A stretch of 36,051 bases of DNA, taken from Oscillospiraceae bacterium (GTDB taxonomy: Bacteria; Bacillota; Clostridia; Oscillospirales; Oscillospiraceae). Each line of letters opens with the position of its first letter. Position 1 is the first letter of the stretch. Shown here one piece after another: positions 13,921 through 34,470 of this stretch. The stretch is taken from contig WQWL01000019.1 of the NCBI GenBank assembly GCA_009785345.1, forward strand, positions 1-36,051, in the 5' to 3' direction. The notes under the pieces were generated by a model, which worked only from the letters and a program-made list of their open reading frames with translations, was not told the DNA's origin and did no database searches. Made by a program: the position numbers and the translations under genes.

Positions 13921-14235
13921 ATGTCTGAAGTCTCCGTAGCAATGATTGATGGAATTAACCAGATGATGAGCAGAAGTGTTCGACCTGATGGTGCTGCGTC
14001 TGGTCTTGAAGAAAGCATGAGGCTTTCAGGAACTATTTTTGATACAGGCTGTAATGAATGTATTCGTTGTGATACATATTATGAGAGTCAATTTCAGGAA
14101 CTTGCAGAGGAAATGCAACGTCTTTCTGTGAAGTTACAAACAAATAGCTTTTGCCTGAATGTTGGGATTATAAATTGGGATGCACTGTTTGAGATTAAAT
14201 CGCGAATGGATTGCACACAGATGTTACCAGAGTGA
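13921..14235 (+). pseudogene. Effector coil-motif fragment 2
   Basis: This 104-codon frame contains LSGTIFDTGCNECIRCDTYY and then SFCLNVGIINWDALFEIKSR. It matches the end of the targeting regions of the 762-aa effector (IFDTDCDECVACDTYF, FCPNVGI) and of the 22507 RHS protein (FCPNAGIIDWSGLLDVKSQM). It stops just where the variable tip should begin. There is no good ribosome site. It looks like the stump of an effector whose tip was replaced by the NACHT gene that begins 20 bases later. Confidence 0.65.
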
Positions 14236-17106: not shown

Positions 17107-17249
17107 TTAAGTGTTTAGTCCAATTTTCAATAAATTCTGTATCGATGATAATGGCATTACTATGATTATGCGAAGTGCGTGTTGTGATTTTTCTTGGGTC
17201 AAATCGCGAGGCATCAGCAATTAACATTATAAAAATGGAGAATAAAGAT

Positions 17250-19520
17250 ATGAAAAAAAGATGGATTCCGGTAATATTATTGTCACTGGTCGTAGCAATA
17301 CTAATAGGTCTACGATTTGGGACAGACATGGAGCAGCAACGATTCTTAGAGGCAGCAGATATAGAATCAATTGCTCCAGAAGCAATTGCAGTTGTCAACT
17401 CTGACACTGGTGCTGCGATGGATGGAGTAATCTTGAATTACTCTGCAGCAATAATAGACACGTTAGGTGATGGCTTTATTTTGGTTTCACCCGCAATGGC
17501 ACAAACTGGTCTTGAGCAAGGTGTTTATAGCGCAATATTGACATTTCCGTCGCATGTATCTGAACGAATAGTTGCGTTTAACACTGAGACTCCTGAACGT
17601 GTTCAGCTTGAGTTTAGAGTTAATCCAAACTTGGCTGAGTCAAATTATATAATGACACATCTGGAATTATTGAATCTTCAATTAGCAATAAATACGACTG
17701 TAGCAAATACCTATGTCACGTCATTGTTTTCTCAGTTTCACACTGCACAAGATGAGATGGGTGCAGTATTTCGAAACAACATAACCAGTCGCGAGGCAAT
17801 AGACGTTGTATATCTAAGAGATTTTACACCCGATCTAGATCTTGACTTTTTACCTGAAGTACCTTTCGAGCCGAACGAAGCAGACACATCAGAACACCTT
17901 CAAAGTGTAGCGGGTTTTGCTGAAGAAGTGAGACGTATATATCGTTCGAACTTTGAACTTGCTGCAACAATATACAGCGGAATGCGTGATACATTCGATC
18001 CTCTTGTTGACGGCTTTGATGATGAGCGCGCTGCATGGATTAGAGAAGCAAGCGCGTGGATAGCAGATTGGGTTCAGTTTTCTGGGGAAGTAGATGACTT
18101 TTTTGCCTTGGTGATTGGGCACCAAGGAGACCTGGTTGAGTGGAGAGCTAATGAAGCGATGGATTGGCATGGGGAACTAGAAGATTGGCATGATGGTGTT
18201 GAAGACTGGTATGATGCACTTGTTCTTTGGTATGGTGCTCCTGGTGTTCCCAATACAGCAAGAGAGTGGTTTGGTCGTGCAGAGAGTCAAGTTGCAGCAG
18301 TTAATTGGGAAATAAATGAAATGAGCTCAAGGTGGAATGATTTCTTTGCTCCGCCACTATGGACTAATGTACGAGCACAGGCTGAACTTCTTCCTACAAT
18401 GGAATCAGTTAATCCAGATTGTACTTGTATATGCCCTTGTGAGCCTATTCCCACATGCACGTGTGATACATGCGGTTTATCATGTAATTGTTCAGACGTT
18501 GGTACAGGTTCGTGCGGTGCTAGTTGCGCTTGTCCATCAGACAATTGTTGTATGGGTGTCTGCCTGCCAGGCGATTGTCCATTAACTACTAATCCTGATC
18601 ACATACATACAGCAGCATGTTTACAAAATAAAGCAGATGAACTTAGTGACTATATTTTAAACAATTGGGCACCCGGTTTTATATCTGCATTTAATAGTGT
18701 ACTAATCCCGACAAATGCAGAATTTATAGCCGACTGGATTGTTGATACTGATGGAATCACGTTTTCATTAAGCGAAGTTGATGAAGATATGCCACCACCG
18801 CCCACGCTTGATGGTGATGTAGAGCAAGCAAACAGGCGAGAAGTGCCACCAGAATGGAACGATGAGGATGAAGACTATGAACCGCCAACAAGACCTGAGG
18901 AAGAAGATGAATTGCCGCCGGATCCGCATGAAATTCTGGCTGGCATTCATGAAATAAATTATTTATTGCAACGATTCAATGTAGGAGATTTCATGCCAGA
19001 CGAACTTTCGGAAGAAGTTGGTGTTATGTTGGCTGCTTATTCTTCATATCTTGACTTTATCCGTGCAGACTTATCTTTTCAATTCATGGAGAACATATTC
19101 ATGCTCTTTGATGTTCGCTCAGAGTATATCGAATATCTTAATTATTTACGCACATCCGCACTTGAATCTGAATACGACGTAAGAACGGATTTGCAAGCCA
19201 CCATATATGAGTTTTACAACGTTGCACACGGTAGTGGTCAGGACACATATGAGAGACTCTCCAGTTTTACTGGTATGCTACCGGAGAGTCGCACAGCGGC
19301 GGGCATAAATCAAGAACTGGTTAATTTTACGATTGCGCCATTTGAGTTCATGACACCAGTAGTGCGTGCAGAAATAAGGACAGACATAGTGACTACATCT
19401 AATTTGCTTGACTTTTTACTGTTGCTTGCGCTTATTATTCTGGCTATTCTTGTAATATTGGCTGTGACGCTGACTGTAATAGAATATGTTAAGAAAATGA
19501 AAGCTGAGTCAAAGTTATAG
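17250..19520 (+). CDS. YhgE/Pip/EsaA-like membrane protein with Cys-rich insert (756 aa)
   Basis: ATG 17250 is chosen because GGAG precedes it by 9 bases and a membrane helix follows at once (residues 5-22). Residues 45-130 show the family's extracellular start: AVVNSDTGAAM, then a GLEQGVYSAILTFPS block. EsaA/YueB proteins of this family are T7SSb membrane components. Here only one C-terminal helix (about 724-748) is present, whereas EsaA usually has several. Two unusual parts stand out: a Trp-rich segment near 270-330 (repeated DWHG/EDWHD) and an insert at 390-443 with 16 Cys (CTCICPC, CTCDTC, CNC, CAC), followed by an acidic Pro-rich linker near 510-570. It is probably a secretion accessory spanning the thick cell wall. 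Confidence 0.7.
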   Translation: MKKRWIPVILLSLVVAILIGLRFGTDMEQQRFLEAADIESIAPEAIAVVNSDTGAAMDGVILNYSAAIIDTLGDGFILVSPAMAQTGLEQGVYSAILTFPSHVSERIVAFNTETPERVQLEFRVNPNLAESNYIMTHLELLNLQLAINTTVANTYVTSLFSQFHTAQDEMGAVFRNNITSREAIDVVYLRDFTPDLDLDFLPEVPFEPNEADTSEHLQSVAGFAEEVRRIYRSNFELAATIYSGMRDTFDPLVDGFDDERAAWIREASAWIADWVQFSGEVDDFFALVIGHQGDLVEWRANEAMDWHGELEDWHDGVEDWYDALVLWYGAPGVPNTAREWFGRAESQVAAVNWEINEMSSRWNDFFAPPLWTNVRAQAELLPTMESVNPDCTCICPCEPIPTCTCDTCGLSCNCSDVGTGSCGASCACPSDNCCMGVCLPGDCPLTTNPDHIHTAACLQNKADELSDYILNNWAPGFISAFNSVLIPTNAEFIADWIVDTDGITFSLSEVDEDMPPPPTLDGDVEQANRREVPPEWNDEDEDYEPPTRPEEEDELPPDPHEILAGIHEINYLLQRFNVGDFMPDELSEEVGVMLAAYSSYLDFIRADLSFQFMENIFMLFDVRSEYIEYLNYLRTSALESEYDVRTDLQATIYEFYNVAHGSGQDTYERLSSFTGMLPESRTAAGINQELVNFTIAPFEFMTPVVRAEIRTDIVTTSNLLDFLLLLALIILAILVILAVTLTVIEYVKKMKAESKL

Positions 19521-19596
19521 AGAGATATAGGAATTAAATCTAACGAAGAACAAGCGTGGATCATTCTCAAATATTAATATGAACAGGAGATACATA

Positions 19597-21984
19597 ATGA
19601 GGACTACAAAGAGAAGAATAATTGCGTTGATAACAATATTGACGATACTGTTATCGCTTACACCAATGGCGGTCGCATTTATAGATGAAGGCACAGGTTA
19701 TGAATTGTTAAGCGGGAGTATTGTAGATACAGTTTTAGCTAGTGCTAATGAAATGGACATAGCTTTGTTAGAAGTGAAAAATACAGAGTTATCCGACGAG
19801 AAAACTTTTGAGTGTGATAATAGCTATGGATCGTACAATTTATTTGAGGACCTTGAATGTGATTGTTTACATGAGTGCGAGCAGGAAGAGCTTTGCGAAT
19901 GCGTGTGTGAGCATGGCTATTATTATGATTGCATTTGTGAGTGTGCTTGTGGATTTGAAGAGTACTACATTGAGATTATGCCACTTAATACATTCACAGC
20001 TAGCGATTGGGTTCAACTACAGAGCGCATTTTCAAACATGTCAACCAATGGGTCCTATATGGTAAATATTGCAGGAAATATTAATATGGAGGATGGGCTA
20101 CCGACTATTCCTATAAATAGAACTGTCACAATCACAGGTGGAGGCACATTAACCCAACCAACTTCAAATCGTCACTTTACTGTAGCAGGTACATTAATTT
20201 TAGAGAATATTACGCTCAGTGGTGTTGTCGGAAACACAAATAATCACGGAGGAATCACTGTAAGTAGTGGTGGTCGCCTATATATGGAAGATGGTAGCAC
20301 AATCACCGGAAACAGAGCCAATATTAGTGGGGGCGGTGTAAGTAATAGTGGACACTTTACAATACGCGGTGGTGTGATTAGCAACAATACTACTACTGCT
20401 AATCTCGGTGGTGGTATATCCAACACCACTGTAGGTACTCTTGTTATGGAAAGCGGAATAATTAGCGGTAATATTGCTGAATTACGTGGTGGTGGAGTAG
20501 CTAATACGGGAAGTTTTACTATTAATAATGGTACTATCAATGGAAATAGAGTATATCGACCCAATGGTGGAGGCGGTGGAGTATATAACTTTACTGGTAC
20601 TTTCATTATGAATGGCGGAACCATAAGTGATAATGCCGCGGCTGAAGGTGGTGGATTATGGAATATGGGTTTTTCCACTATGAACGGCGGTGAAATAAGC
20701 GGTAATACAGCAACTCAGGGCGGTGGTATACATAATAATACTAACCATGCATCATTTACTATGAACAATGGTCTGATTTCCGGCAATGACGCAATGGCCG
20801 GTGCCGGTATCAGTAACTTTAGTGGTGGTTCAATCATTATGAGAGGTGGCGAGATCAGCGGAAATACCAGAGGAGTCGGTGTGGCCAATGCAATCAGCGG
20901 TTCTACATTCGTCATGTACAATGGAACTATATCGAACAACTCTAGTGCCGGTGTATCCAATTCAGGCACTTTTACAATGTATGGTGGCACAATTAGCGAA
21001 AACCTTGGTCTCGGTGGTGCTGGTGGTGTATTCAATTCAGGCACATTTACAATGCACAATGGTTCAATAAGCAATAATAATTCTGTTAGCTCCGGCGGCG
21101 GCATAAGCATTAGTGGTGGTACGGTTACTTTATATGCAGGTACAATAAGCGGTAATAGAGCAAATGGTACTAATGCACTTGTGCATGGAGGCGGTGGAAT
21201 CGCCTGGACAAACGAAGAGGCTTTACTCAACCTAACCATAGCTCCGGCGGTCGTGCTTTCAAACAATATTGCTGCAACGGGGCTTCGTATAAACGATGCG
21301 CTAAATAATGTTCACAATATTAATGCGAACGGCAGAATCAACCCAGGAACATGGACAGGAAGTGACACTGGTATTTCACATGCGTTCAATAATCACGACA
21401 TCAGAACGCCCGTTGTTCCAATTCAACCCCCACCAATTGAGCCGGAATATCGCAATATTCGCATTTACTATGTGATAGACAACGACAATGTTGATGAAAT
21501 CGTAATAAGTCCTATGATGTCTAACTATCCTTTAGGATATATTTACGAAGTCAACGAGACTTTTTACTTGACAGGTTCTCGTGCAATAGATATGAATGCA
21601 CTACCGGGTGATAATGTTTATATATTTGAAGGTTGGTTTGTCTTTGTGGGCGAAGATTGGGATGAATATAATTCTTATCTTCCAGGCTTAGTTGCAGATC
21701 AACTGCAAGGGTCATTTGTAGTACCTCAATCAACAGCGGGAGAAGATGTATGGGATGATATAACGTTATATGCGGTATGGTCCTTGCGTGAAGCACAAGA
21801 TGCAGTAACTCCGCCAAGTGCACCGACACCTCCTCCGGCTGGTGCTCTTCCGGCAACAGGTATTGAAAGCAGCGTGACATTATGGGTGGTATTATTGTCA
21901 CTTACGGTATTAGTAATTACAGGCGTTGTAATATGGCTTGTGATAAGTAAAAAGAAGAATCAGAAAGCTACATTAGGAAAATAG
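19597..21984 (+). CDS. LPxTG-anchored beta-helix surface protein (795 aa)
   Basis: ATG 19597 is preferred over 19579 because AGGAGA lies 6 bases upstream and a signal peptide starts there (MRTTKRRIIALITILTILLS; likely cut after AVA). Residues 87-120 hold a Cys cluster (ECDCLHEC, LCECVC, DCICECACG). Residues ~130-580 are Gly/Asn/Ser repeats of the form (F)TMxGGTISGNxA, a right-handed beta helix like that of Pmp-type and pectate-lyase-like proteins. Then comes a region ending in DITLYAVW, typical of InlB/Flg_new-type repeats, a Pro-rich spacer, LPATG at 751-755, a membrane helix and a Lys-rich tail. A sortase should link it to the wall. It follows the EsaA-like gene after 76 bases on the same transcript. 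Confidence 0.85.
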   Translation: MRTTKRRIIALITILTILLSLTPMAVAFIDEGTGYELLSGSIVDTVLASANEMDIALLEVKNTELSDEKTFECDNSYGSYNLFEDLECDCLHECEQEELCECVCEHGYYYDCICECACGFEEYYIEIMPLNTFTASDWVQLQSAFSNMSTNGSYMVNIAGNINMEDGLPTIPINRTVTITGGGTLTQPTSNRHFTVAGTLILENITLSGVVGNTNNHGGITVSSGGRLYMEDGSTITGNRANISGGGVSNSGHFTIRGGVISNNTTTANLGGGISNTTVGTLVMESGIISGNIAELRGGGVANTGSFTINNGTINGNRVYRPNGGGGGVYNFTGTFIMNGGTISDNAAAEGGGLWNMGFSTMNGGEISGNTATQGGGIHNNTNHASFTMNNGLISGNDAMAGAGISNFSGGSIIMRGGEISGNTRGVGVANAISGSTFVMYNGTISNNSSAGVSNSGTFTMYGGTISENLGLGGAGGVFNSGTFTMHNGSISNNNSVSSGGGISISGGTVTLYAGTISGNRANGTNALVHGGGGIAWTNEEALLNLTIAPAVVLSNNIAATGLRINDALNNVHNINANGRINPGTWTGSDTGISHAFNNHDIRTPVVPIQPPPIEPEYRNIRIYYVIDNDNVDEIVISPMMSNYPLGYIYEVNETFYLTGSRAIDMNALPGDNVYIFEGWFVFVGEDWDEYNSYLPGLVADQLQGSFVVPQSTAGEDVWDDITLYAVWSLREAQDAVTPPSAPTPPPAGALPATGIESSVTLWVVLLSLTVLVITGVVIWLVISKKKNQKATLGK

Positions 21985-22105: not shown

Positions 22106-22402
22106 ATGTCAGAAATATTTGTAAATAATTCGGGTATTCAATCGCAAAGCGGAGCTATTTCTAATTCAACAAATGCTGCCGAGCAATCGACTACAAATTA
22201 CAGATCACAATCAATTACCCATCAAGGTGGACTTGATGGGGCGGCTAGATTTAGCACGTTGCAATTCAACGACTTCGCAAGACGGGCTGTTGAAGCAGCA
22301 TGTGCAACAACGCACAATATAGGTGCTTTTATTAGAAATGCGGCTCAAACAACAGCATCTTTAGACCAATCGCAAAGCAGAAGATTTATAATGGACCATT
22401 AA
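22106..22402 (+). CDS. WXG-like small secretion partner, cassette C
   Basis: This 98-aa helical protein lacks a signal peptide and has a good AAAGGAG site. It is a clear paralogue of the 10246 protein: both have THQGxLDGAARxxxxxxNxxAR, AAC-T-xN and NAAQT in order. It is the likely binding partner of the RHS effector that begins 104 bases downstream. No promoter is obvious between the 22039 terminator and this gene, so its expression may rely on readthrough or on an unseen promoter. Confidence 0.6.
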   Translation: MSEIFVNNSGIQSQSGAISNSTNAAEQSTTNYRSQSITHQGGLDGAARFSTLQFNDFARRAVEAACATTHNIGAFIRNAAQTTASLDQSQSRRFIMDH

Positions 22403-22429: not shown

Positions 22430-22497
22430 GCAGACATGTTACTCGAGAGTCGTATTGCAGCGAGTATAAATCAAAATTTATTTACTTTTATTTAGGA
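22430..22497 (+). pseudogene. Fragment resembling the EsaA-like gene
   Basis: One frame reads FADMLLESRIAASINQNL and stops with TAG at 22493-22495. This parallels TGMLPESRTAAGINQELV of the 17250 protein (DNA about 19275-19320). The match is short but colinear, so this gap between partner and effector seems to hold recombination debris. Confidence 0.45.
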
Positions 22498-22506
22498 GGG
22501 CAGACG

Positions 22507-25500
22507 ATGCAAGGGTATTCCGGCGCTCCGGCGCGTCAGTATTTACGAACATGCGAAGAGGCAATGGATGCAGCCAATGCAGTAGTATCGTCATCAGCGG
22601 GTAGACTGCCAGCGATAGCGCGACCGCCGCTGCGTCGTCTTCCGCATTTGGAAGCCGATGCCGTATTTAGACCTGGAGTGACTGCCGGTTTTGAGTCGAG
22701 TGCCAATATAGTTGCCTCCTCTGGTCATTACAACAGTGCAGCACTTACGCACATAACGTTTGGTGAGGAAATAACCGGGCAACTGGATCAGATATATAAT
22801 GCGATAGATAATGCAGTGACAACAAACCTCCGCATGCCGCAAACAAGTACACAAGTACATCTTGTAACACAAATGCTTAGAATGTTAATGCCACAGTTAA
22901 GGGATTTACTATCCCGAGCCGGAGCAATAACGAACCGTCAGTCAGCAGCAATGCTAGGCATCGGTGGTGGTGGTGAAGGTTTTGAAATGCAACCTTCAGT
23001 TGCGGACTCATACCGGGTTGCCAATGAAGCAATCCTGCAAAATGTAAGTGAAGATATGCGTAATTATGCACAGCGTGCACGCACTCATGCCGATCACTGC
23101 GACACCCAGGCAGACAATTTACGTTGGCAACTAAATCGTATGCGTAATCAACCAACTCCTCCGAATCAAACTACGGCGCAAGCACGGGCACGTACTAATA
23201 CAATGAATCAATTGACGAGCAATATAAACAGTTTGCAGAGTGAAGCACAAGTGTATCGTGCAGAAGCTATGCGTTTAGATCAAGGAGCAGATAACCTTGC
23301 ACAAGACATATTATTTACACGGCGAAGATTTGAGCACTATGTGAAAGAATGTATAGATTGCGATGCACATTTTGCAGGAGAGTTCCAACAACTTGCAGGA
23401 GATATGCAACAGCTTGCAATGCAGTTTGAAGCGATAATGAGCAGTTTCTGTCCAAATGCGGGTATAATCGACTGGAGTGGATTACTGGATGTAAAAAGTC
23501 AGATGTCACCAGCAGATCAAGAGTTATTGTCCTTGTTGTTCTTTAGAGCTATGCTTGCACTAGCGGGTGTAAACAATTTTTGTTTATTCGGCTTAGACCC
23601 TGTCAACATGAGTACAGGCAACTTCATCTACAATAAAGAAGACATAACAATACCTGGACGCTTCCTTCTTGAGTTCAGACGCTTTTATAACAGCATTGGT
23701 GGGACTGAAGGTGTAGTTGGTGCAGGCTGGACACATAATTATAATATACGTTTAGAAGATAAAGAAAGTGCAGTTCATGTAATATTTGGCGATGGTCGTG
23801 TTGAGACGTATAACTGTTCAAAGGAAGATGGATATATCTCTCCACTAGAAAGTGACTATAGTTTGCAGAAAACTGACAATGGTTGGGAGCTTTCTACAAG
23901 CACCAACGAAGTTCATAAGTTCGACAAGATTGGATTATTACAAAGTATCTGTGATGCAAATGACAACGCAGTTACACTTGACTATAAAGACACGTTATTA
24001 TCTAAGGTATCCACCCTAGGTGGTAGCTTGAAATTTTTATATGACAAAAATAATCGCATAATGAATGTATCAGACCATACAGGTCGGGAAGTTAAACTCG
24101 AATATTCGGGCGTATTACTAAGCAAGGTTGTACATCCATCGGGAGCAGAGCATAAATATGGCTATGATTCATACGGTAATCTATCAACGATAATCAATCC
24201 TCTTGGTGTAGAGGTAATCAAGAACAAATATGATGGTAATGGCAGATTGGTTGGTCAGAGTTTTGCTGATGGCGGTGAGAGTTCGGTTAACTATGAGAAT
24301 GAAATAACGACTACTACAGAGCAAAATGGTAATGAGATAAAGTATGAGCGTGATAGCAAGTATCGTACTATACGTACCATCTACTCAGATAGTGAAGAGC
24401 GTTTTGAATACAATGATCAAAACAAGCGCACTAAACATATAGATCGTAATGGGAATGAGACTACATTTGAATATGATGAATATGGTCAAATGTTTAAAAT
24501 TACAGATGCTCTGGGTTACAAGACAAAACTTGAGTACAATGGCTCTGACTTAGTACAAGTAAGCCGTGAAGATGATATTATGGCGAAGTTATGCTGTGAT
24601 GATAACGGCAACGTAATCGAGGTCAAAGATGCATTAGAACGCATATCAAAGATTGAATATGATGGCAAAGGACAACCTGTTAAGGTGATAGCTCCGGATG
24701 AGTCTGTAACAATGATGGAATACGACGAGTGTGGAAACATTGTTGCCATAACTGATGCACTTGGTGCAGTAACAATGTATGAGTATGATAAACTCAACCG
24801 ACCTATAGCTACAACTGATGGTAATAGCAACAGAACTAAATTTGAATACAATGCTACGGGAGATATATCAAAGGTAACCAATGCCGATGGTAAGAAGCAA
24901 ACATTTGAATACAATGCAAATGGTAAAGTAACCAGTATGGTTGACTTCGATGAAAGCACCATAACGCAAGAATACAACAACATGGGTAAGCCTTGTAGAA
25001 TGGTTGACCAAGAGGGTAACGAAACCATACTTGAGTATGATTTGATGTGGAACGTATCGAAACAGATTGATGCAAATGGTAACGAGACAGTTTTTGAGTA
25101 TAATAAGCTAAACAGACTAGAGAAAGTAATCAATGCCAAAGGCACAGAAGTACGCTTTGAATATGACCCTAATGGCAACAGGACAAAAGTATATGGTGCT
25201 AAAGGTGAAGAGGTTACTTTATCATACGATTCACTTAACAGACTAACAGAAGTGACTGAGCCTGATGGTGCAAAGATGACTGCTAATTATGACTGTATGG
25301 GTCAAGTAACAAGAGTCACTGACGCAATGGGTTATGAGACCAACTTCATATATGATAAAATGGGGCAGAAGACGAGTGAAATAGACCCGACAGGTAGAAA
25401 GCTAAAATATACATACAACGCACTTGGTCAAATTGCTACCGTGACTGGTTCCATCGGTCGAACAGTTGAGTATGAATATCTTCCAGGAGGGCTATTGGCG

Positions 25501-28221
25501 AGTGTCACGCAACCTGATGGCAAAAGTGAGAAATATACATATGATGCAAACAAGAATATCATTTCTAAAGAATCGCAGGATGGATACACTCTCAGTTATG
25601 AATATAACTGTTTAAATCAAATAACGAAAATCAGTAGTAGTACAGGACAGATTAAAACACATACCTATGATGCTGTGGGTAATGTCACGAGCATAACAGA
25701 CGCAAATAGTAATACAACGAGATACATATACTCCCCAGCTGGCAATTTGATTTCTGTAATTGACCCTCTCGGCAATAAATCTGAATATGATTATGACAGG
25801 CTTGGCAATTTGGTAGAAGTTAAACAGTTTGCAGAGTTAAGCGAAGCTATGGAGATAAACAAGCAAAATTCAAAACTTCGTATTACCAAATATGATTGGG
25901 ATGAAATTGGTCAAGTTGAAAAGATAACAGATGCTCTTGGTAATATAGAAAAGTATACGTATGATGAATTAGGCAATGTTACAAGTAAACTCGACAAAGA
26001 CGGATTCTTGACGAAGTATGCTTACAACATAACAAATCAGCTTGAAGAGGTTGTTTATGCGGACGGCAACACGGTAAAGTTATCATATAATCCACTAAAA
26101 CAGCTAACTGAGATAAGAGATTGGCTTGGCATAACATCAATTGATGTAGATGAGCTTGGCAGAGCAAAGAAAGTTAGAGACCATAATGGCAATGAAGTGG
26201 AGTATACATTCGGCACAGAAGGCGAACAAAGGAGTATAAAGTACCCTGATGGCAAAGTTGCCGAATATATTTATGATGATTTATTGCGTCTGAAAACACT
26301 AATTGATGGTAATAACAAGGTTGATTATCTTTATGATAATAATGGTAGGTTAAGCGACAAGACATTCTCAAGTGGAGTCAGCACGAAATATATGTACAAC
26401 GACATGGGCCTACTCTCTGAGCTTGCTCATAGCGATAAAGATGGTATTCTCGACAGATACACATACTCTTATGATAATATGATTAACAAGTCAAGTATTG
26501 AAAAATACAGACGTGGCTTGGAGGAAGAGAGTGGTAACTACAGTTACTCATACGATGCGCTATCACGTCTTACAAAAGTGCACAAAGACGGACAGCAGAT
26601 AAAATCATTCGACTATGATGAGTTTGGAAATCGCAGCCAAATGATAGACAACAATGTTAAGACAAACTACACATACAACGCGCTCAATCAATTGATATCC
26701 ACAAACAATACAATCGGTATTGAGCAACACTTCAACTATGACAAGCGCGGCAACCTGACACAGATACTTGAAAATGGCAAGGTTAAGAACTCCTATGAGT
26801 TTGGTGCGCTAAACAGATTAACTAAAGCAACAAACTCGGCAGGACAGAGTGCAAGCTATGATTACAATAGTTTTGGTTTTAGAGTAGGCAAGCATGTGAC
26901 GGATAATCTCAATCCTACGAAAAACATCAATTATGTACTTGACCTTACGAAGCAATATCATAACCTCTTACAGATGAGCGATGATAAACAGACACAATGC
27001 TACACATGGGGTCATAATATCGCTTTTGCAGATGATAACGCATACTTGCAAGATGAGCTTGGTAGTCCGCTACGATATATTGACAGCACAGGCAATACTA
27101 TAGGCAGTTATGGCTATGGTGAGTTTGGTGATGACCTTTATGGCAATCAAGGCGCAGTGCAGCCATTCGGATATACTGGCTATATAGCGGACAGCATTGC
27201 AGGTACGTATTTTGCTCAAGCGAGGGAGTACCTGCCTAGTATTGGCAGATTTAGTGGTGAGGATATCGTCAAACAAGGTAATAATTGGTACGCATATTGT
27301 GGCGGAAACCCCTTAAAGTATATTGACCCCGATGGGCAGATATACATTGTATATGACCAGTGTGCAAGACAATTTGTGTATACTTCAAATAGAGATGTGG
27401 CGTTGCAATTCGTGAATGTTCCACCAGGTAGTGACGCAACGCCGTCTGGTGTTTTTATTGAAAGTACTAGCCCTGGGAGAGTGGTCTATGACCTGAGGGC
27501 TAGTGGTCAAACTGTGGTAACTGCAGATAGTTCAGCGTTCAGAGTGACCACAACAGGCAAAGTTGAACCTGTTGTGCGTTCTCCAAGGAATGACAATGGA
27601 GTTACTATATCTCAAACAGGAAATAATATTATAATTGAGGCATATTTTTATTTTCCGACTGCGGGCGTAATCTTCAATAGAGACAGGATTCCCGACAACA
27701 TTTGGACTGGTGATGAAAGTAATCTTACATATGCTCAGATATTTCTTCAGGGTGTTGAAGAACATTGGAGTGGCAATTTTGGGAATTATCAAGTAACTGT
27801 ATATGCAAGACGTGCAATGACTGCTAGTGATGGAATTCAGGTAAATATTCGTAATGGGTACGGCGTTTCAAATCTGAGAGTTATAGGTGGGGCAGCAAAC
27901 AATTGGTCTAACTCTAATCGTGGTACTATAACAATGTTTAGAGGAGACTTACGAAGTGAAACTACTCAGCCCTACTCGTTATCGCAGTTTATGTGGGTAT
28001 CAGCTCATGAGTTTGGACATGCACTTGGTATTGCTGATGCATCAAGATTTGAAAATAGCGAAGGATTTGAAAGTATTATGAATGCGTTCGGAATGCTTGT
28101 GCAAGAACGTGATATAACTATGCTGTTGCAAGCATGGGAAACGGGTAATTGGCAGATTTGGCCAGGCATGGGGGATCGCTTGCCAAGTACACCTTGGCTA
28201 ATAAATGAGTGTGTAGGATAA
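22507..28221 (+). CDS. RHS-repeat T7SS-type effector with zincin-like tip (1904 aa)
   Basis: AGGAGGG precedes the ATG. Residues 1-165 are the head domain shared with the 762-aa effector, and 165-335 the coil and Cys-containing end (ECIDCDAHF, FCPNAGIIDW). DUF6531-type DPVNMSTGNFIYNKEDI lies near 364. YD repeats run to DPDG near 1607. The tip, 1610-1904, has HEFGHALGIAD at 1834-1844, an HExxHxxGxxD site (ligands H1834, H1838, D1844; catalytic E1835). SIMNAF after it provides a plausible Met-turn. The tip matches that of the 2695 protein in GT(V/I)xMF, the zinc site and the final (T)GxWQxx segment, though upstream parts differ. There is no signal peptide, consistent with T7SS export. A candidate immunity lipoprotein follows. 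The protein target is unknown. Confidence 0.8.
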   Translation: MQGYSGAPARQYLRTCEEAMDAANAVVSSSAGRLPAIARPPLRRLPHLEADAVFRPGVTAGFESSANIVASSGHYNSAALTHITFGEEITGQLDQIYNAIDNAVTTNLRMPQTSTQVHLVTQMLRMLMPQLRDLLSRAGAITNRQSAAMLGIGGGGEGFEMQPSVADSYRVANEAILQNVSEDMRNYAQRARTHADHCDTQADNLRWQLNRMRNQPTPPNQTTAQARARTNTMNQLTSNINSLQSEAQVYRAEAMRLDQGADNLAQDILFTRRRFEHYVKECIDCDAHFAGEFQQLAGDMQQLAMQFEAIMSSFCPNAGIIDWSGLLDVKSQMSPADQELLSLLFFRAMLALAGVNNFCLFGLDPVNMSTGNFIYNKEDITIPGRFLLEFRRFYNSIGGTEGVVGAGWTHNYNIRLEDKESAVHVIFGDGRVETYNCSKEDGYISPLESDYSLQKTDNGWELSTSTNEVHKFDKIGLLQSICDANDNAVTLDYKDTLLSKVSTLGGSLKFLYDKNNRIMNVSDHTGREVKLEYSGVLLSKVVHPSGAEHKYGYDSYGNLSTIINPLGVEVIKNKYDGNGRLVGQSFADGGESSVNYENEITTTTEQNGNEIKYERDSKYRTIRTIYSDSEERFEYNDQNKRTKHIDRNGNETTFEYDEYGQMFKITDALGYKTKLEYNGSDLVQVSREDDIMAKLCCDDNGNVIEVKDALERISKIEYDGKGQPVKVIAPDESVTMMEYDECGNIVAITDALGAVTMYEYDKLNRPIATTDGNSNRTKFEYNATGDISKVTNADGKKQTFEYNANGKVTSMVDFDESTITQEYNNMGKPCRMVDQEGNETILEYDLMWNVSKQIDANGNETVFEYNKLNRLEKVINAKGTEVRFEYDPNGNRTKVYGAKGEEVTLSYDSLNRLTEVTEPDGAKMTANYDCMGQVTRVTDAMGYETNFIYDKMGQKTSEIDPTGRKLKYTYNALGQIATVTGSIGRTVEYEYLPGGLLASVTQPDGKSEKYTYDANKNIISKESQDGYTLSYEYNCLNQITKISSSTGQIKTHTYDAVGNVTSITDANSNTTRYIYSPAGNLISVIDPLGNKSEYDYDRLGNLVEVKQFAELSEAMEINKQNSKLRITKYDWDEIGQVEKITDALGNIEKYTYDELGNVTSKLDKDGFLTKYAYNITNQLEEVVYADGNTVKLSYNPLKQLTEIRDWLGITSIDVDELGRAKKVRDHNGNEVEYTFGTEGEQRSIKYPDGKVAEYIYDDLLRLKTLIDGNNKVDYLYDNNGRLSDKTFSSGVSTKYMYNDMGLLSELAHSDKDGILDRYTYSYDNMINKSSIEKYRRGLEEESGNYSYSYDALSRLTKVHKDGQQIKSFDYDEFGNRSQMIDNNVKTNYTYNALNQLISTNNTIGIEQHFNYDKRGNLTQILENGKVKNSYEFGALNRLTKATNSAGQSASYDYNSFGFRVGKHVTDNLNPTKNINYVLDLTKQYHNLLQMSDDKQTQCYTWGHNIAFADDNAYLQDELGSPLRYIDSTGNTIGSYGYGEFGDDLYGNQGAVQPFGYTGYIADSIAGTYFAQAREYLPSIGRFSGEDIVKQGNNWYAYCGGNPLKYIDPDGQIYIVYDQCARQFVYTSNRDVALQFVNVPPGSDATPSGVFIESTSPGRVVYDLRASGQTVVTADSSAFRVTTTGKVEPVVRSPRNDNGVTISQTGNNIIIEAYFYFPTAGVIFNRDRIPDNIWTGDESNLTYAQIFLQGVEEHWSGNFGNYQVTVYARRAMTASDGIQVNIRNGYGVSNLRVIGGAANNWSNSNRGTITMFRGDLRSETTQPYSLSQFMWVSAHEFGHALGIADASRFENSEGFESIMNAFGMLVQERDITMLLQAWETGNWQIWPGMGDRLPSTPWLINECVG

Positions 28222-29138: not shown

Positions 29139-29427
29139 CAATCAAAATTTATTTTAATTTTATTTAGGAGGGCAGACGATGCAAGGGTATTCCGGAGCTC
29201 CGGCGCGTCAGTATTTACGAACATGCGAAGAGACAATGGGTGCAGCCAATACAGTAGTATCGTCATCAGTGGGTAGTCTGCCCGCGATAGCGCGACCGCC
29301 GGTACGCCGTCTTCCACATTTGGAAGCCGATGCCGTATTTAGCCCTGGAGTGACCGCCGGTTTTAGTCGAGTGCCAATACAGTTGCCTCCTCTGGTCATT
29401 ACAACACTGCCACAAGTAATTTTATGA
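29139..29427 (+). pseudogene. Truncated, frameshifted duplicate of the cassette C effector head
   Basis: Bases 29139-29412 repeat 22465-22738 almost exactly, including the ribosome site and the start MQGYSGAPARQYLRTCEE. The original reads GGTTTTGAGTCG; the copy reads GGTTTTAGTCG near 29359-29369. Loss of this G shifts the frame, which then ends at 29427. Similarity stops soon after CATTACAACA, at the join with the next operon. It cannot make an effector but could recombine with the full gene. Confidence 0.8.
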
Positions 29428-29447: not shown

Positions 29448-29894
29448 ATGCAAAGAAATATGCGAACAACAGCACAGATTAGTAATGATATTAGTAGTGT
29501 GCAGACAAATTTAGTGTCTGCACGAAGCGAACTGCAGCGTCTTGAGGCAGATTTAGTTACCTTAAATACACTTTCTGGACACTGTAATAAGTATTGCGAG
29601 AGCTTTGATGAAGAAATTCATCTGCAACGTTCGGAAATAAACGGCTTGTCTGCGCTGAGTCAAAATTCGGTAATTATAGGACGTCATATTGATGTGATGA
29701 GTGATGCGTTGACTGGAGCGACGTATTGCAGTGTCAGTCGCGAACTTGATGAGTTATTAGCTGAAATTTCACGTGAAAGAACGAGCTTGGAAAATGCCAT
29801 CGATATTGAGCGTAGTAATATAGCAAATATGGAGGCACGCCTCACGAACCTGAGATGGGAACTTAATCAAGCTATGAGCATGGAAAGGATGTAG
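29448..29894 (+). CDS. Coiled-coil T7SS partner-like protein (DUF5082-like), lipase operon
   Basis: This 148-aa protein is almost entirely helical with two long coils (QLQRLEADL-type and ERTSLENAIDIERSNI-type heptads) and no signal peptide. Size and pattern are like YwqH/DUF5082 proteins, which precede LXG toxins and help load them. The ribosome site is weak, and ATG 29460 is an alternative start. The stop is two bases before the next ATG, so it is coupled to the 29897 gene. The family assignment is tentative. Confidence 0.5.
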   Translation: MQRNMRTTAQISNDISSVQTNLVSARSELQRLEADLVTLNTLSGHCNKYCESFDEEIHLQRSEINGLSALSQNSVIIGRHIDVMSDALTGATYCSVSRELDELLAEISRERTSLENAIDIERSNIANMEARLTNLRWELNQAMSMERM

Positions 29895-29896
29895 TT

Positions 29897-30205
29897 ATGG
29901 GTGATTTTAGACTAAGTGGTCTTACAGATGAGTGTGTCATTGTTGTTGATGGTGAATTTCAGCGTGCTCGCAGAGACTTAAATGATTATGCAAGATTTTT
30001 GTCACGCTGCATGAGAGATTACACAAATATACTTACGAATATTTCAGCCGAAGCGATTTCTGATGGGCAGCTAAGTGATAGTTTAGCTGAGTTTTGTTAT
30101 GAATCGCTTCCTCTTGCTAGCGAAATTGATGACGTGCGTAATAAGTTTGATAGTAAGATCCGAAATTTCGTAAGTAATGTCAATAGTGCAGATAATATAT
30201 CATAG
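29897..30205 (+). CDS. Small helical partner-like protein, lipase operon
   Basis: This 102-aa helical protein has AAGGATG just upstream and begins two bases after the previous stop. Its end (KIRNFVSN) matches EMRNFVSN at the end of the 2197 partner of cassette A, which supports a shared role in effector binding. It has no signal peptide or enzyme motif. It probably works with the proteins before and after it. Confidence 0.5.
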   Translation: MGDFRLSGLTDECVIVVDGEFQRARRDLNDYARFLSRCMRDYTNILTNISAEAISDGQLSDSLAEFCYESLPLASEIDDVRNKFDSKIRNFVSNVNSADNIS

Positions 30206-30231
30206 ATAAGTTATAAGGAGAGTTTTGTGAA

Positions 30232-30621
30232 ATGAGTAGTCACGGCATGCTTACAATACAATTTAGTTCATTAGAGATGGAACTGTTTAACTTCAAAGCA
30301 CTTGAAGAACGAGTTATGAATGGGTCACCTTACGTCAACACACTAGGTTCTGAGTTAATGACTAAAAGCTATGGGCGCAGTTTTGAAGCAATAAATCTCG
30401 CCTATGCTGAATTAAACAAAATTGAGCAAAAACTAGTGGATTTGGTAGGGCGCACACGATATGCTATAGAATATGCGGGTATAGATTTTGCCGAACTTGA
30501 CCACAGAAGAAGTGAACATATGCGAGAACTCCAAGAGCTTCATTCAAACCTCGCGTTTACAGGGATTGGCGTACGGTGTATGTATACATGCAGTGCTACG
30601 AACTCAGCCTGGGGTGATTAA
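30232..30621 (+). CDS. Third small helical partner-like protein, lipase operon
   Basis: TAAGGAGAG lies 9 bases before the ATG. The 129-aa product is mainly helical (residues 15-105), starts with a short strand (MLTIQFSSLEMELF) as many WXG/DUF5344-like proteins do, and has no signal peptide. Three Cys lie near the C-terminus. The position between two small helical genes and the lipase group suggests a targeting partner or chaperone. Confidence 0.45.
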   Translation: MSSHGMLTIQFSSLEMELFNFKALEERVMNGSPYVNTLGSELMTKSYGRSFEAINLAYAELNKIEQKLVDLVGRTRYAIEYAGIDFAELDHRRSEHMRELQELHSNLAFTGIGVRCMYTCSATNSAWGD

Positions 30622-30707
30622 TATAAAATGAATATGATGCAACATAATCTAATTTATTTCATTTTTGCACCGAGTGTGCGTATTTTCATTTTGGAGGTAT
30701 TATTTTT

Positions 30708-31409
30708 ATGGAAGTTCCAAAACGCACTGAAGAAATGTTCAATCGTGAGTTTAATCAATATATAACTCGCATGGAAATGTGTGATATGGATTTGCAAGAT
30801 CGGTTTGTTGCGCATATTGAACGCAAATATGGAATGAGCCAGAAAGATTTCAAAATAATTGCCGTACATCATGGTGATTTTGGAAATCCTTCTGACCGTA
30901 TGTATGCATATTTAGCTGACGGTGCACCAGAAACGAAAGGTTTTTCTGTTAGAAGTGTAGTCGATGACGGGGAAAGTGATATTTTATGTTCAGATAATCT
31001 TGCTGGATTATTTATGCGTGATGAATTAGAAGTGTGGATTGCCGATATTGCAAGAGAGTTTTTTGGCGAAGTAAAGGTATTTATAAGATCATTTCCTCCT
31101 GCATTACCTGATGATTTTAATCGCAACAGCTCAGCACAAGATTTGAAGGGACGTGAAACTGCACTAATTCACGTGTCTATTTGTGTAACCGAAAAGATTG
31201 GCAGTGCCAAAGAATTTGAAGCAGCTACGAAGCAGTTTTTTGAGAGGTGGGGTGACGAGAAAGTGAATACGAGCCTATCAGTAGTTTGTTTAGAACAAGT
31301 TGCTTTTGAAAATAGAGCACGCGAAAATCATCACGAGCCACTATCTGAAGGAATGGTTATAACAACACAAAGCAGAACAATTTGGCCAAACCGGTCTGTG
31401 GAGGAATAG
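30708..31409 (+). CDS. Leaderless paralogue of the 31987 lipoprotein
   Basis: This 233-aa protein has GGAGG upstream and lacks a signal peptide, so it should stay in the cytoplasm. Over nearly its whole length it matches the lipoprotein at 31987: both contain HIERKYG, MYAYL-DG, DNLAGLFMR-ELE-WIA, FPP-LP-DFNR-SSA-DL-GRET and SRTIW-NR. The family is unknown to me. A pair with one cytoplasmic and one surface member, both beside a probable lipase, suggests protection or holding of the enzyme before and after export. Confidence 0.65.
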   Translation: MEVPKRTEEMFNREFNQYITRMEMCDMDLQDRFVAHIERKYGMSQKDFKIIAVHHGDFGNPSDRMYAYLADGAPETKGFSVRSVVDDGESDILCSDNLAGLFMRDELEVWIADIAREFFGEVKVFIRSFPPALPDDFNRNSSAQDLKGRETALIHVSICVTEKIGSAKEFEAATKQFFERWGDEKVNTSLSVVCLEQVAFENRARENHHEPLSEGMVITTQSRTIWPNRSVEE

Positions 31410-31412
31410 CTA

Positions 31413-32003
31413 ATGAAACTATGGGATAAATCTCTAGTAGTGTGCATAATATGTGTGTCAATTTTATTTTCAGTGTTGCTCTCTGCCTGTGATGTTTTGC
31501 GAGATGAACTAATCACTCCAGCTCTGGAAAATGTTGTTGGGGGCTTAGAATCTGCTTTGGATGAACAAGAGAATACACAAGAAGAACTGATAAATGATCA
31601 GGCTGACGACGAGCTATTGGAAAATCCAATAGTTGGTAATTGGATTGCAGATCGTCCATATGGTGGATATTTTGAATTTACATATGATGAATTTAGGTGG
31701 TTTGAAGCACGAGAATATTTGGACGACAACTTTTTTTGGGGAACGTATACGTTTTCAGCAGGAGCTATGAGACATAACGGAGAGCTTGATTATGGTGAAG
31801 AAGGGCATGAAATATTCACGATTTATTTGACTTTTTTAGGTCAACAGTTAGATGGGATTACAGATGAGATAGAAGCACCGGGTGCACTAACCATCCAGCG
31901 TTTAGGTTCTGATGATTCATTGTTCGTTTTCAATCATGTTGCAGGACACACATTCAATATTGATAGGGTGTTAGAAGGAAATCAAAATGAAACTGAGAAT
32001 TAA
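31413..32003 (+). CDS. Lipoprotein with lipocalin-like domain
   Basis: GGAGGAA lies 6 bases upstream and the start is 3 bases after the previous stop. The 196-aa product has lipobox LSAC (Cys26), an acidic Glu/Asp/Gln linker (residues ~45-70), and then a region opening IVGNWIADRPYGGYFEFTYD and GTYTFS, a beta-rich pattern as in small lipocalin-like domains. It should sit on the cell surface. A lipid-binding inhibitor role beside a lipase is plausible but unproven. Its end overlaps the start of the next gene by 17 bases. Confidence 0.55.
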   Translation: MKLWDKSLVVCIICVSILFSVLLSACDVLRDELITPALENVVGGLESALDEQENTQEELINDQADDELLENPIVGNWIADRPYGGYFEFTYDEFRWFEAREYLDDNFFWGTYTFSAGAMRHNGELDYGEEGHEIFTIYLTFLGQQLDGITDEIEAPGALTIQRLGSDDSLFVFNHVAGHTFNIDRVLEGNQNETEN

Positions 32004-32760
32004 GTGCATTGTTTTCATAATCCTCATGACTCTACTCGCTATTTTTAGTGTGTCGTGTATGATTGCCAATCCTGACCATACAGAAGAATATCAATATATT
32101 ACACGACGGGAAATGCGAGATATGGGTCCAACGCAAAGGTTTGTTACGCATATCGAGCGTAAATACGGTTTGAGAAACCGTAGAGATTTCAACGTGATTG
32201 CTACACATTACGGAAGAGGGCTTTTATCTCCAAGTAACCATATGTATGCATACTTAGTTGACGGCACACGAGAGACTCATACATTCAGGGTCAGTGGAGG
32301 GACTGATAGTTATGGAAATGCACGTTTTATGGATAACCTTGCCGGACTATTTATGCGTGAAGAGTTAGAGGAATGGATTGCCGAAGTAGCGGAAGAGTTT
32401 TTTGACGATGTAAAGGTGTTTGTGAGGATGTTTCCTCCATCATTGCCTGCTGATTTCAATAGAGACAGTTCTGCAAGAGACTTAGCAGGACGAGAAACCG
32501 GATTGATTCAAGTTTCAGTTAGTGTTTCTGAGCAATTTGAAAGTATTGAAGAGTTTGAGACGGTGGCAGAAGCATTTTTAGACAGGTGGAGTGATGAGGA
32601 TGTAAACTCTCGCTTAGTCGTAGCCAGTCTAGAGCAACTTTTTTTTAATAATAGAACACGTGAAAACATCAATGACCCAATACCAGACGGAGTAGTTATA
32701 GCAGCTCACAGTAGAACAATTTGGGCGAATCGACCTGGAGAGGAGAATGATAATGAGTGA
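31987..32760 (+). CDS. Lipoprotein paralogue of the 30708 protein
   Basis: The ATG lies within the end of the previous gene, with AAGGAA before it. The 257-aa product has a signal peptide ending in VSC (Cys24) followed by the domain shared with the leaderless 30708 protein. Gene duplication with gain or loss of the signal is the likely origin. It overlaps the lipase start by 8 bases, so production of the two is coupled. It is the leading candidate for surface immunity to the lipase, analogous in position to TilA lipoproteins of S. aureus. Confidence 0.65.
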   Translation: MKLRIKCIVFIILMTLLAIFSVSCMIANPDHTEEYQYITRREMRDMGPTQRFVTHIERKYGLRNRRDFNVIATHYGRGLLSPSNHMYAYLVDGTRETHTFRVSGGTDSYGNARFMDNLAGLFMREELEEWIAEVAEEFFDDVKVFVRMFPPSLPADFNRDSSARDLAGRETGLIQVSVSVSEQFESIEEFETVAEAFLDRWSDEDVNSRLVVASLEQLFFNNRTRENINDPIPDGVVIAAHSRTIWANRPGEENDNE

Positions 32761-34333
32761 ACCAATCCAACTAACAGATGAGGAATTATTAGCATTAAAT
32801 AATATTATTTATCTACACGAATTTGGACCTGCAGGATTGAATGAAGAAACCGGTCCTCAAACAGTCGGCGAAATTCTGGAAGATATCAACTGGTACGTGG
32901 ATGCTGGTAATGTTGAGGTTATTGGTAGTGGTCGTAATAGTCGAAGAGTTTATCCAGCAGCGATGACGAGAGATGAATGGGATAATATCATCAACCTAGT
33001 CCAAAACTGTGAAAGACTACGAAATCTTGAGGTCCACCACCCACGCCATGACCAAATAACCGACGCAGTTTCGGTTGTATTTGTCGATCCGGCGAATCGG
33101 TATCATGGAAATGTAGTGTTTCGTGGAACGGGAGAAAACCAATGGCGAGATAATGCTCAGCTTTTAACAATGATAGCCACTCAATGCCAACTTGCTGCAC
33201 AGGAGTGGGTTGCGGGGCTTACGGAGTTTAGCTCGTTGACGTTGTCAGGACACTCAAAAGGAGCAAATACAGCAGTTTTTGTAGGCATCCAAGATGAGAG
33301 AGTGGTAAATGTTGTTGGATTTGACACACCGGGGTTTTCTAATGCTTTTCATAGACATTTTGAAGACTTACTAAATCAGCGTGCTGATATAGTAACACTC
33401 TATGCAAATGATTTAGACTTTATAAATATTCTGCTTCAACAAATTGGAGTAGATATCAACTTTTTTGCGAACCCAAATGTACAGAACTTTAAAAATCACC
33501 ATTCCCCCAATACCGGATTTATGATGGACGAGAATGGCTACATCCTGTCGTTAACGTTTGCTAATTATGGAACTGACTTACAACATCCTGTAATGGAAAT
33601 GCTCAATCGCTTTACTCTTTATTTACTTGAAAATGCATCGCCGGGTGAGCAGCGTTACATAATGAGTGTAATGGGTGAATTACTTATATCATTTATGGGA
33701 AATGATGACTATATGCGTAATAGACTATTAAATCGTTTTGGACCACAAGGTGCATTATTGATTTTTGATTACCTGAGAGAGTTTTTAATTTACCTTCAAG
33801 AGACTGATCCTGCTGCATATGTGCGTTACAGACATGCGATGACTGTACTGGCCGGTTCTATTTACTTTGATAGTGTGGAAAATCCTACTATCACAATGCT
33901 TTTAACAACAATGGTATTAGGCAATCAATCTCTAAATATACTTGAAGGGGTTGGTGATTATGCTCGCTTTTTTAACCATTTGTTCGGTGCAACTATACGT
34001 GACTTTTCCGAGCAAACAAAAGATGAACTTATTAGATCAGCTGAGAATTCAAGATTTAGAGATAAATCGTGGTTAGACTGGACTCGTTGGGGTGTTTCAC
34101 ATTTAGCAGAAGTAACATTTCCTCGTTTAAGTATTAGAGCACGACTTAATAGCGTAAGCAATTTTTTAGACGACGTGAATGAAATCCGACGCAGTAATGT
34201 TGATAACATAAAGCGAGTGTTTGAGGAAGTTCGTAGTCTTGATGCAAGCCATGCTTCACAAATAGAAAGTTCAACGGATGAGTTGACTCAAGTGACAAAC
34301 AAGCTAGAACAACTTGTGAGTCGTATAAGTTAA
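32753..34333 (+). CDS. Lipase-like effector with C-terminal coiled coil (526 aa), reverse-LXG-type
   Basis: ATG 32753 is chosen over 32747 because GAGAGGAG is then well spaced. Residues 1-255 form an alpha/beta hydrolase like DUF2974/Mbeg1 proteins: NVVFRGT oxyanion-type strand, then LSGHSKGANT with Ser168 as nucleophile. Asp220 or Asp222 and His249 or His250 are possible triad partners. Residues 290-420 are helical. Residues 455-526 form a coiled coil ending the protein (NSVSNFLDDVNEI, NKLEQLV). There is no signal peptide. S. aureus TslA, a T7SS lipase, has this reversed order (enzyme first, LXG-like coil last) and works with small helical partners and lipoprotein immunity proteins; the gene set here matches. 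Substrate specificity cannot be read. Confidence 0.7.
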   Translation: MSEPIQLTDEELLALNNIIYLHEFGPAGLNEETGPQTVGEILEDINWYVDAGNVEVIGSGRNSRRVYPAAMTRDEWDNIINLVQNCERLRNLEVHHPRHDQITDAVSVVFVDPANRYHGNVVFRGTGENQWRDNAQLLTMIATQCQLAAQEWVAGLTEFSSLTLSGHSKGANTAVFVGIQDERVVNVVGFDTPGFSNAFHRHFEDLLNQRADIVTLYANDLDFINILLQQIGVDINFFANPNVQNFKNHHSPNTGFMMDENGYILSLTFANYGTDLQHPVMEMLNRFTLYLLENASPGEQRYIMSVMGELLISFMGNDDYMRNRLLNRFGPQGALLIFDYLREFLIYLQETDPAAYVRYRHAMTVLAGSIYFDSVENPTITMLLTTMVLGNQSLNILEGVGDYARFFNHLFGATIRDFSEQTKDELIRSAENSRFRDKSWLDWTRWGVSHLAEVTFPRLSIRARLNSVSNFLDDVNEIRRSNVDNIKRVFEEVRSLDASHASQIESSTDELTQVTNKLEQLVSRIS

Positions 34334-34470
34334 GATGTATGGGACGATATAACGTTGTATGCGGTGTGGTCCTTGCGTGAAGCACAAGAAGTAGTAACGT
34401 CGCCAAGTGCACCGACACCTCCAGCGACTGGCGGTGGTGGTCTTCCGGCGACAGGTATTGAAAACAGCAT
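34334..34470 (+). pseudogene. Stranded C-terminal fragment of an LPxTG gene
   Basis: Starting at the base after the lipase stop, this stretch repeats 21744-21880 of the LPxTG gene with few changes: DVWDDITLYAVWSLREAQ, a Pro-rich spacer and LPATGIE. Similarity stops after LPATGIENS, before the membrane helix; the frame then runs out at 34540 in unrelated sequence. No start or ribosome site is present. Confidence 0.8.

Follow-up and report, generated by a model that had tools for sequence, protein, structure and literature searches.

How does a type VII secretion system (T7SS) recognise a reverse substrate, one that carries its enzyme at the N-terminus and its helical part at the C-terminus? 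Garrett et al. ask that more reverse substrates be found and that their recognition by the machine be explained (PMC10730906), and the same question is raised by a seven-gene operon at positions 29448-34333 in the genome of an Oscillospiraceae bacterium. The window, by which we mean the whole stretch of DNA analysed, is the entire contig WQWL01000019.1, 36,051 bases of a draft genome that is 85.9% complete in 237 contigs. The original prediction, made from the letters of the window, had read the operon as a clostridial version of the TslA lipase system of Staphylococcus aureus with a third small partner and a leaderless immunity-like protein. We think it likely that the operon is a T7SSb toxin-immunity module, comprising an antibacterial (phospho)lipase, a targeting module of three small proteins (sp1, sp2 and sp3), and copies of one immunity-like family (IMM) in two compartments. 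The observations on which this reading is built are the genes themselves, the predicted fold of the enzyme, the conserved triad residues of the lipase, the paralogy within IMM, the gene order, a motif in sp3, the T7SSb genes of the source genome, the adjacency of EssC-like genes to related cassettes, and an association between the helix class of the lipase and the small genes.

Gene order and its recurrence in related loci

All seven predicted genes are present on one strand, in the order partner-partner-partner-IMM-lipoprotein-IMM-lipase, and the tight coupling claimed for them is borne out by intergenic gaps of 2, 26, 86, 3, -17 and -14 nt from 5' to 3'. The genes and the sites within the lipase gene are as follows (aa, amino acids).

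29448..29894, + strand: sp1, a coiled small protein of 148 aa, YwqH-like (DUF5082) and Lap-type by the Pfam matches of its family
29897..30205, + strand: sp2, a small helical protein of 102 aa, homologous to the first ~95 residues of a large protein of forward orientation at locus L099
30232..30621, + strand: sp3, a small helical protein of 129 aa, DUF5344-like and Lap-type by the Pfam matches of its family
30708..31409, + strand: IMM-L, a leaderless immunity-like protein of 233 aa, paralogue of the 257-aa lipoprotein (AF2 model, pLDDT 90, pTM 0.85)
31413..32003, + strand: a lipoprotein of 196 aa with no Pfam match
31987..32760, + strand: IMM-P, a lipoprotein copy of the immunity-like family, 257 aa, by sequence match to IMM-L
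32747..34333, + strand: the lipase-like toxin candidate, 528 aa, Mbeg1-like (PF11187)
33254..33256, + strand: codon of the nucleophile Ser170 (GHSKG), present in 36/36 aligned lipases
33416..33418, + strand: codon of Asp224, the proposed triad acid, present in 35/36 aligned lipases
33500..33502, + strand: codon of His252, the proposed triad base, present in 35/36 aligned lipases
34133..34327, + strand: C-terminal helix of the lipase, residues 463-527, the proposed docking or targeting part, from the structure model and the end profile

A two-row lipase profile found matches in 90 of the 394 genomes of the order; the strong ones are nearly all long (about 430-585 aa) and the weak ones mostly shorter, with exceptions. 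In a six-frame search of 78 related loci, the order sp1-sp2-sp3-IMM-lipase is complete in 15 and partial in four (L113, L120, L130 and L142, the last two with little upstream DNA), and because the same order recurs in those 15 loci from other genomes, the gene set is more than chance. The gene caller had overlooked genes beneath longer antisense frames (L112, L120), so the counts were repeated in six frames; by open reading frames (ORFs), 13 cassettes are full. L120 is scored as partial with its immunity-like gene under the threshold, even though that position holds a lipoprotein frame. The hosts named in the records of the 19 full or partial loci include Lachnospiraceae, Oscillospiraceae, Clostridium and one Coriobacteriaceae, many as metagenome bins; the cassette forms a broad natural family found chiefly in Clostridia. 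A further subclass, in which 1.5 kb of upstream sequence shows no recognised immunity-like gene, is seen in L138, L158, L161, L163, L168, L175, L179 and L185; its lipases measure about 810-830 aa and come in some cases from Acholeplasmatales. Two candidate relatives (L062, L190) were judged false hits, and a secreted-type protein of 2509 aa whose end is lipase-like (G166/L046) does not belong to this system.

The source genome carries the T7SS ATPase gene on which the original prediction hinged, with the doubt over binning that attaches to a draft. Contig C32 encodes a WXG100-like protein that stays below the cut-off (E 8.6e-5), a small membrane protein that is EssA-like by position only, YukC/EssB (E 2.7e-52), present as one copy in the genome, and an EssC of 1449 aa with FtsK domains (E 5.1e-58). 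Small helical genes come next, and after them the start of a further substrate-like gene. In related loci the link is direct: a 1363-aa FtsK-type EssC-like gene ends 15 nt ahead of sp1 in L111, a 1285-aa EssC-like gene precedes sp1 in L162, and one of 1191 aa precedes sp1 in L112 with a 97-aa gene between. An EssC profile finds such genes in 16 of 79 related loci. Locus L045, from another genus of the family (G146), has a gene for an EssC-like protein in which FHA and FtsK domains are found, a small gene judged YukD-like by eye, genes for two WXG100 proteins and for a protein of 221 aa, and a lipase with a hairpin-like end; two further WXG100-like proteins follow, one of them below the Pfam cut-off. 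The window itself holds a short frame at 13544-13921 in which 29 residues are 62% identical to the EssB/YukC-like protein of C32, a remnant copy.

The lipase, its terminal helix and the small partners

The lipase is a distant match to PF11187 (33.6 bits against a cut-off of 21.1) with an extra C-terminal half. In the Pfam scan only PF11187 was found up to E 1, with no N-terminal LXG domain (PF04740); a sequence search against solved structures gave nothing below E 0.4, and none of the 10 proteins scanned had an NCBIfam match above cut-off. The fold of the enzyme is predicted to be that of a class-3 lipase, N-terminal, with a GXSXG motif and the residues Ser170-Asp224-His252 placed by model and alignment; the fold lists did not include TslA, an absence that excludes nothing. 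The nucleophile had been numbered Ser168, which is the same residue, as the start at 32747 gives 170 and the ATG at 32753 gives 168. The lack of a signal peptide also held (no leader is visible in the sequence by eye), as did the terminal coil: in the structure model helices run from residue 281 on, and the last 65 residues (463-527) form one long helix. In the lipase ends of L100 and L107 we read from the alignment a VGLxDL-type stretch between two helical parts.

Ordinary PF11187 proteins, mostly frames of ~360-450 aa, are common, with a match in 49 of the 150 family genomes, the window's own included, and the lipase could on this ground be a household Mbeg1-like enzyme, intracellular or membrane-remodelling, that adjoins T7SS genes by chance. 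The window lipase, however, is one of the two weakest PF11187 matches (E 1.7e-8, most being at 1e-55 or lower), is longer and has the terminal helix. Furthermore, IMM or sp1-3 occur in none of the 30 best ordinary PF11187 loci (0/30), a contrast that for IMM is drawn over an equal 1.5 kb upstream, as the control loci span at most 1.5 kb per side, and that for sp1-3 and WXG100 is uneven, as the related loci span up to about 6 kb. Unlike a household gene, the lipase has a match in 0/18 same-genus genomes at E 0.001 (several of these genomes being incomplete). We regard a household role as very improbable. When the genome contigs were scanned using just the window lipase, 22 pattern matches came up, with no relative among them.

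A profile was made from the last 75 residues of five lipases (those of the window, L111, L112, L113 and L155) and run on the long lipases. With the seeds excluded, all 14 matches (E 0.001) have at least one small gene upstream, compared with 0/58 non-matches (Fisher p 3e-15, ancestry ignored). Nine of the 58 non-matching loci have less than 2.5 kb upstream and could not show small genes; with the remaining 49 the Fisher p is 2.7e-14, ancestry again ignored. The best-matching stretch is the C-terminal end in 14/14. Three of the matches (L130, L142 and L154) were seemingly without small genes until the six-frame search found some in all three, and three loci lay outside the scan, L119 with its lipase in two frames, L132 with no frame called and L134 with a short frame. 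On a tree of the first 290 lipase residues, labelled from ORFs and with loci of little upstream DNA left unlabelled, the trait needs six changes, three of them forced by well supported branches, and gives six contrasts across all branches; the window lipase groups with those of L111, L112 and L113 (95 SH-aLRT) on a long branch. The association, taken with only three supported contrasts, suggests that the lipase docks by its terminal helix and does not prove it.

The small proteins were compared with known T7SS partners. In the sp1 family seven of 21 members match PF16888 (YwqH-like), among them the window copy, and six of 15 members of the sp3 family match PF17279 (DUF5344), in both cases counted at E<=0.01 with curated cut-offs not given; window sp1 has E 0.0057, under the curated cut-off, and window sp3 has no match. 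Among the 22 rows of the sp2 family no Pfam family matched more than one row. The three window proteins have positional homologues in L099 (sp1 E 7e-8, sp2 6.9e-15, sp3 1e-4), and the L099 and L104 trios match one another at E 2.9e-14, 6.6e-10 and 5.1e-8; between the window and L104, sp2 alone matches directly (6.5e-5). Profiles of sp2 and sp3 run across the source genome at E 0.1 found matches confined to the window operon.

One of the three carries a candidate export signal.

30487..30501, + strand: FxxxD/E motif of sp3 (F86-A-E-L-D90), at one alignment column in 14/15 family members

At that column 14 of 15 members have F/YxxxD/E, compared with at most 3 in 200 shuffles, and no column of the sp1 or sp2 families beats shuffles for this motif. 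The motif starts 44 residues before the C-terminus in the window and 10-23 in the other members. The FxxxD motif of Lap1 is required for LXG toxin export (PMC9600955). The LXG toxins TelC and TelD (with Lap1/Lap2) and TelA and TelB (with DUF5082/DUF5344) likewise have similar small helical partners upstream (PMC9600955), although their LXG domain is at the toxin N-terminus and none was found in the window lipase. EsaD too has three small helical partners, EsxB, EsxC and EsxD, one with a C-terminal YxxxE (PMC10653861), but it is a nuclease with an N-terminal helical domain and an EsaE chaperone, and no EsaE-like gene was recognised here.

The second small protein points to how such partners might serve a reverse substrate. 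Searched against 323 proteins, a profile built from three sp2 proteins matches residues 5-94 of a 622-aa protein (L099 1237-3105; E 2.6e-6). Of the two small genes ahead of this protein, one matches the sp1 family (3.1e-5) and the other the sp3 family (7e-8). Once iterated, the profile takes in a 571-aa protein of L104 and proteins of 540 aa (L126) and 539 aa (L129) beside the cassette. The four large forward-oriented proteins have no Pfam match below E 0.06 and are putative toxins. Given the domain match in L099 and the separate small genes, the forward-oriented large protein has a built-in sp2 domain and the reverse lipase three separate partners, so that sp2 may stand in, in trans, for the N-terminal domain of a forward substrate. 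Within the window, a 161-aa small protein at 2197-2682, ahead of the first RHS gene, matches the iterated sp2 profile over its last 84 residues (E 5e-5); it gave no match in the whole-genome search with the 22-row sp2 profile at E 0.1.

We compared the window lipase with TslA by published description. The TslA-TilA-TlaA1-TlaA2 system shares with the operon an N-terminal lipase with a Ser-Asp-His triad and a helical C-terminus, small helical partners, and a lipoprotein immunity gene that adjoins the enzyme-coding end (PMC10730906). The two differ in that TslA is followed by two partners (immunity-lipase-partner-partner) and here three partners come first and the lipase last, and in that TlaA1 and TlaA2 are reported to be without a clear motif (PMC10730906), whereas sp3 has FxxxD. 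The likeness to TslA holds for adjoining partners and not for gene order. TslA also has an LXG-like hairpin end with a G-x-L turn, whereas the window lipase ends in a single modelled helix. As for the taxonomy, the locus is a clostridial reverse lipase as predicted, but reverse T7SS lipases outside Staphylococcus are no novelty: besides S. aureus, they are known from Listeria and Enterococcus (PMC10730906) and at the T7SS loci of Neobacillus and Paenibacillus (PMC11217815). The T7SSe (Neobacillus) and T7SSg (Paenibacillus) lipases, compared by description, have a C-terminal helical part in a T7SS setting too, and one or two small WXG100-related genes lie beside almost all candidate substrates of those systems (PMC11217815).

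These likenesses leave room for a simpler account, that the lipase is a plain TslA orthologue targeted by two partners, the third small protein being dispensable or serving another toxin. The fold class and domain order of the enzyme agree with it, as far as TslA is described, and one small gene was not found in L113 and in L142 (the latter with little upstream DNA). It sits poorly, however, with three small genes whose order is constant across 15 of 78 loci, and with partners that lie upstream and include an FxxxD motif where those of TslA lie downstream and are reported to have no clear one. We consider it unlikely. Overall, the evidence bears out the predicted clostridial TslA-type version in part.

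A paralogous immunity-like family

The prediction of one leaderless protein and two lipoproteins was confirmed: IMM-L has no leader (by eye and by a simple rule), and the 196-aa and 257-aa proteins each have a hydrophobic start with a lipobox-like cysteine (by eye). The leaderless protein is immunity-like as proposed, but it is not distinct from the rest of the set. IMM-L and IMM-P align over 233 positions with 54.5% identity (E 7.5e-84), and this paralogy rules out IMM-L as a separate new partner. Recent loss of its leader by a break is unsupported, as DNA similarity starts at codon 16 of IMM-L and at codon 35 of IMM-P, past its Cys24. A GGAGG stretch lies ahead of the IMM-L ATG, and the hydrophobic stretch that a different frame shows just upstream is taken as chance.

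An IMM gene lies within 400 nt upstream of the lipase in 59/78 loci by six-frame search (53/78 by ORFs; 57/75 within 1.5 kb). By fold and by profile IMM-L matches structure 4gl6 (DUF5037), its best fold match, and the family is probably related to this uncharacterised structure. The PF16440 model has one match in 394 genomes, below cut-off and with internal stops, and the name DUF5037 is absent from the open-licence literature searched. No match to DUF576, the lipoprotein immunity family of TslA, was found by Pfam among the 49 IMM members scanned at E<=0.1 or in the fold lists, neither of which excludes a relation; compared with the TslA system, the operon adds a leaderless copy and a further lipoprotein. 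The latter, the 196-aa protein, has no Pfam match and no match better than E 0.11 among 1196 proteins of related loci; it may be a second guard.

That one family should have a copy on each side of the membrane can be compared with ExiAB/ExiCD immunity to EsxX, in which protection is likewise split between the cytosol and the outer membrane face, although ExiAB and ExiCD are distinct families and the window has two copies of one (PMC12744356). TslA is toxic only when exported (PMC10730906), which would make a leaderless immunity copy unexpected, unless the enzyme acts in the cytosol like EsxX (PMC12744356). The position of IMM beside the lipase in 59/78 loci, the occurrence of a leaderless IMM as the sole copy found in a number of loci, and the lack of a stated function for 4gl6 would fit another explanation, that IMM proteins are foldases or export chaperones of the lipase, with the lipoprotein copy helping outside. 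On the other hand, a chaperone has no obvious need of both lipoprotein and leaderless copies in one operon, tandem copies (two in L135 and L155, three in L157) are typical of immunity genes, and TilA, in the same place beside the enzyme-coding end of TslA, is an inhibitor (PMC10730906). A chaperone role is accordingly improbable in our estimation. In L157 (1483-4455) three similar IMM lipoproteins stand in a row before a 1987-aa lipase-headed frame; the record is named Parabacteroides and contamination is possible.

A proposed export route and the setting of the operon

In the toxin-immunity reading, the lipase would be an antibacterial (phospho)lipase with its enzyme domain N-terminal and its targeting part C-terminal. 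The YwqH-like sp1, sp2 and the DUF5344-like sp3 would form a helical Lap-type bundle in which EssC is presented with the FxxxD export motif of sp3, while sp2 occupies the place of a forward substrate's own N-terminal helical domain. The terminal helix of the lipase would join this bundle, to be exported with it or by it through EssC, and the exported enzyme would attack the membranes of neighbours. Before export IMM-L would bind the enzyme in the cytosol, and IMM-P would guard the outer membrane face against toxin from sisters. More tentatively, and with somewhat more doubt than belief, we propose that sp2 is the targeting domain from the N-terminus of the substrate, produced as a protein in its own right, that the toxin-free three-protein bundle is what the T7SS recognises, with the lipase docking in trans via its C-terminal helix, and that the DUF5037-like proteins are a large unrecognised immunity family of two compartments.

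Several points weigh against this reading. We infer enzymatic activity, secretion and binding, and likewise toxicity and immunity. The T7SS genes and the operon lie on different contigs of the incomplete draft, where a binning error is possible, and EssC or WXG100 is found in the flanks of only 25/79 related loci. As to docking, the five helix-profile seeds were picked by eye after the cassettes were known; the independent contrasts on well supported branches agree in 3/3 cases, for which the sign test p is 0.25, and the association is partly ancestry; and the terminal helix of the window lipase is modelled without a hairpin, unlike LXG-like domains. The small proteins, being coiled, cross-match weakly (E 0.001 for window sp3 with the sp1 profile), the sp2 profile reached only E 0.17 with the L104 571-aa protein before it was iterated, and the loci where the genes were counted had also served to iterate the profiles of IMM and the small proteins. 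Among 79 IMM matches, 25 are called leaderless by the simple rule, some of them fragments or duplicates; where a leaderless copy stands alone there is no surface guard, and the two-compartment idea does not generalise to those loci. Finally, L061 has an IMM-like gene without an adjoining lipase.

The operon has sharp edges on both sides, each a partial copy of a neighbouring gene.

29140..29410, + strand: left border, a 93% copy of 22469-22739, the 5' end of the RHS-type gene at 22507
34332..34468, + strand: right border, an 86% copy of 21743-21873, the 3' part of the LPXTG-type gene at 19579

The right-hand copy begins at the lipase stop codon. Framed in this way by pieces of two neighbours, the operon looks like a module swapped into a toxin array, as if toxin modules were exchanged between fixed borders.

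The rest of the array includes two long RHS-repeat proteins (2695-7899 and 22507-28221; PF05593, PF20148) with metalloprotease-type HExxH motifs near their ends and a possible immunity gene after each. The second RHS protein has an N-terminal domain in common with a 762-aa protein at 10563-12851, and related small proteins of 98 aa (22106-22402) and 105 aa (10246-10563) precede the respective genes and are probable partners of that domain. Also within the array is a NACHT protein with an NNH3 domain and pentapeptide repeats (14255-16996), perhaps a defence gene. The window further holds a 781-aa protein (17175-19520) without a Pfam match and with a membrane helix near each end, which by shape we take to resemble the EsaA/PIP-type T7SS membrane proteins.

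In the open-licence literature searched we found no description of this cassette, and the recurring sp1-sp2-sp3-immunity-like-lipase order, the helix-partner association, the sp3 motif, the possible sp2 domain and the IMM paralogue family look new. Because one known partner carries the export motif and the helix class matches the partner set, the cassette makes the question of how reverse substrates are recognised directly testable. It also suggests a function for the orphan solved structure 4gl6 (DUF5037), and offers an example of an immunity family that may protect two compartments. If the split-domain reading is true, it explains the three small partners, the kept FxxxD signal and the LXG-like gene order, and reverse substrates could arise by splitting the targeting domain off a forward toxin and re-docking a new enzyme.

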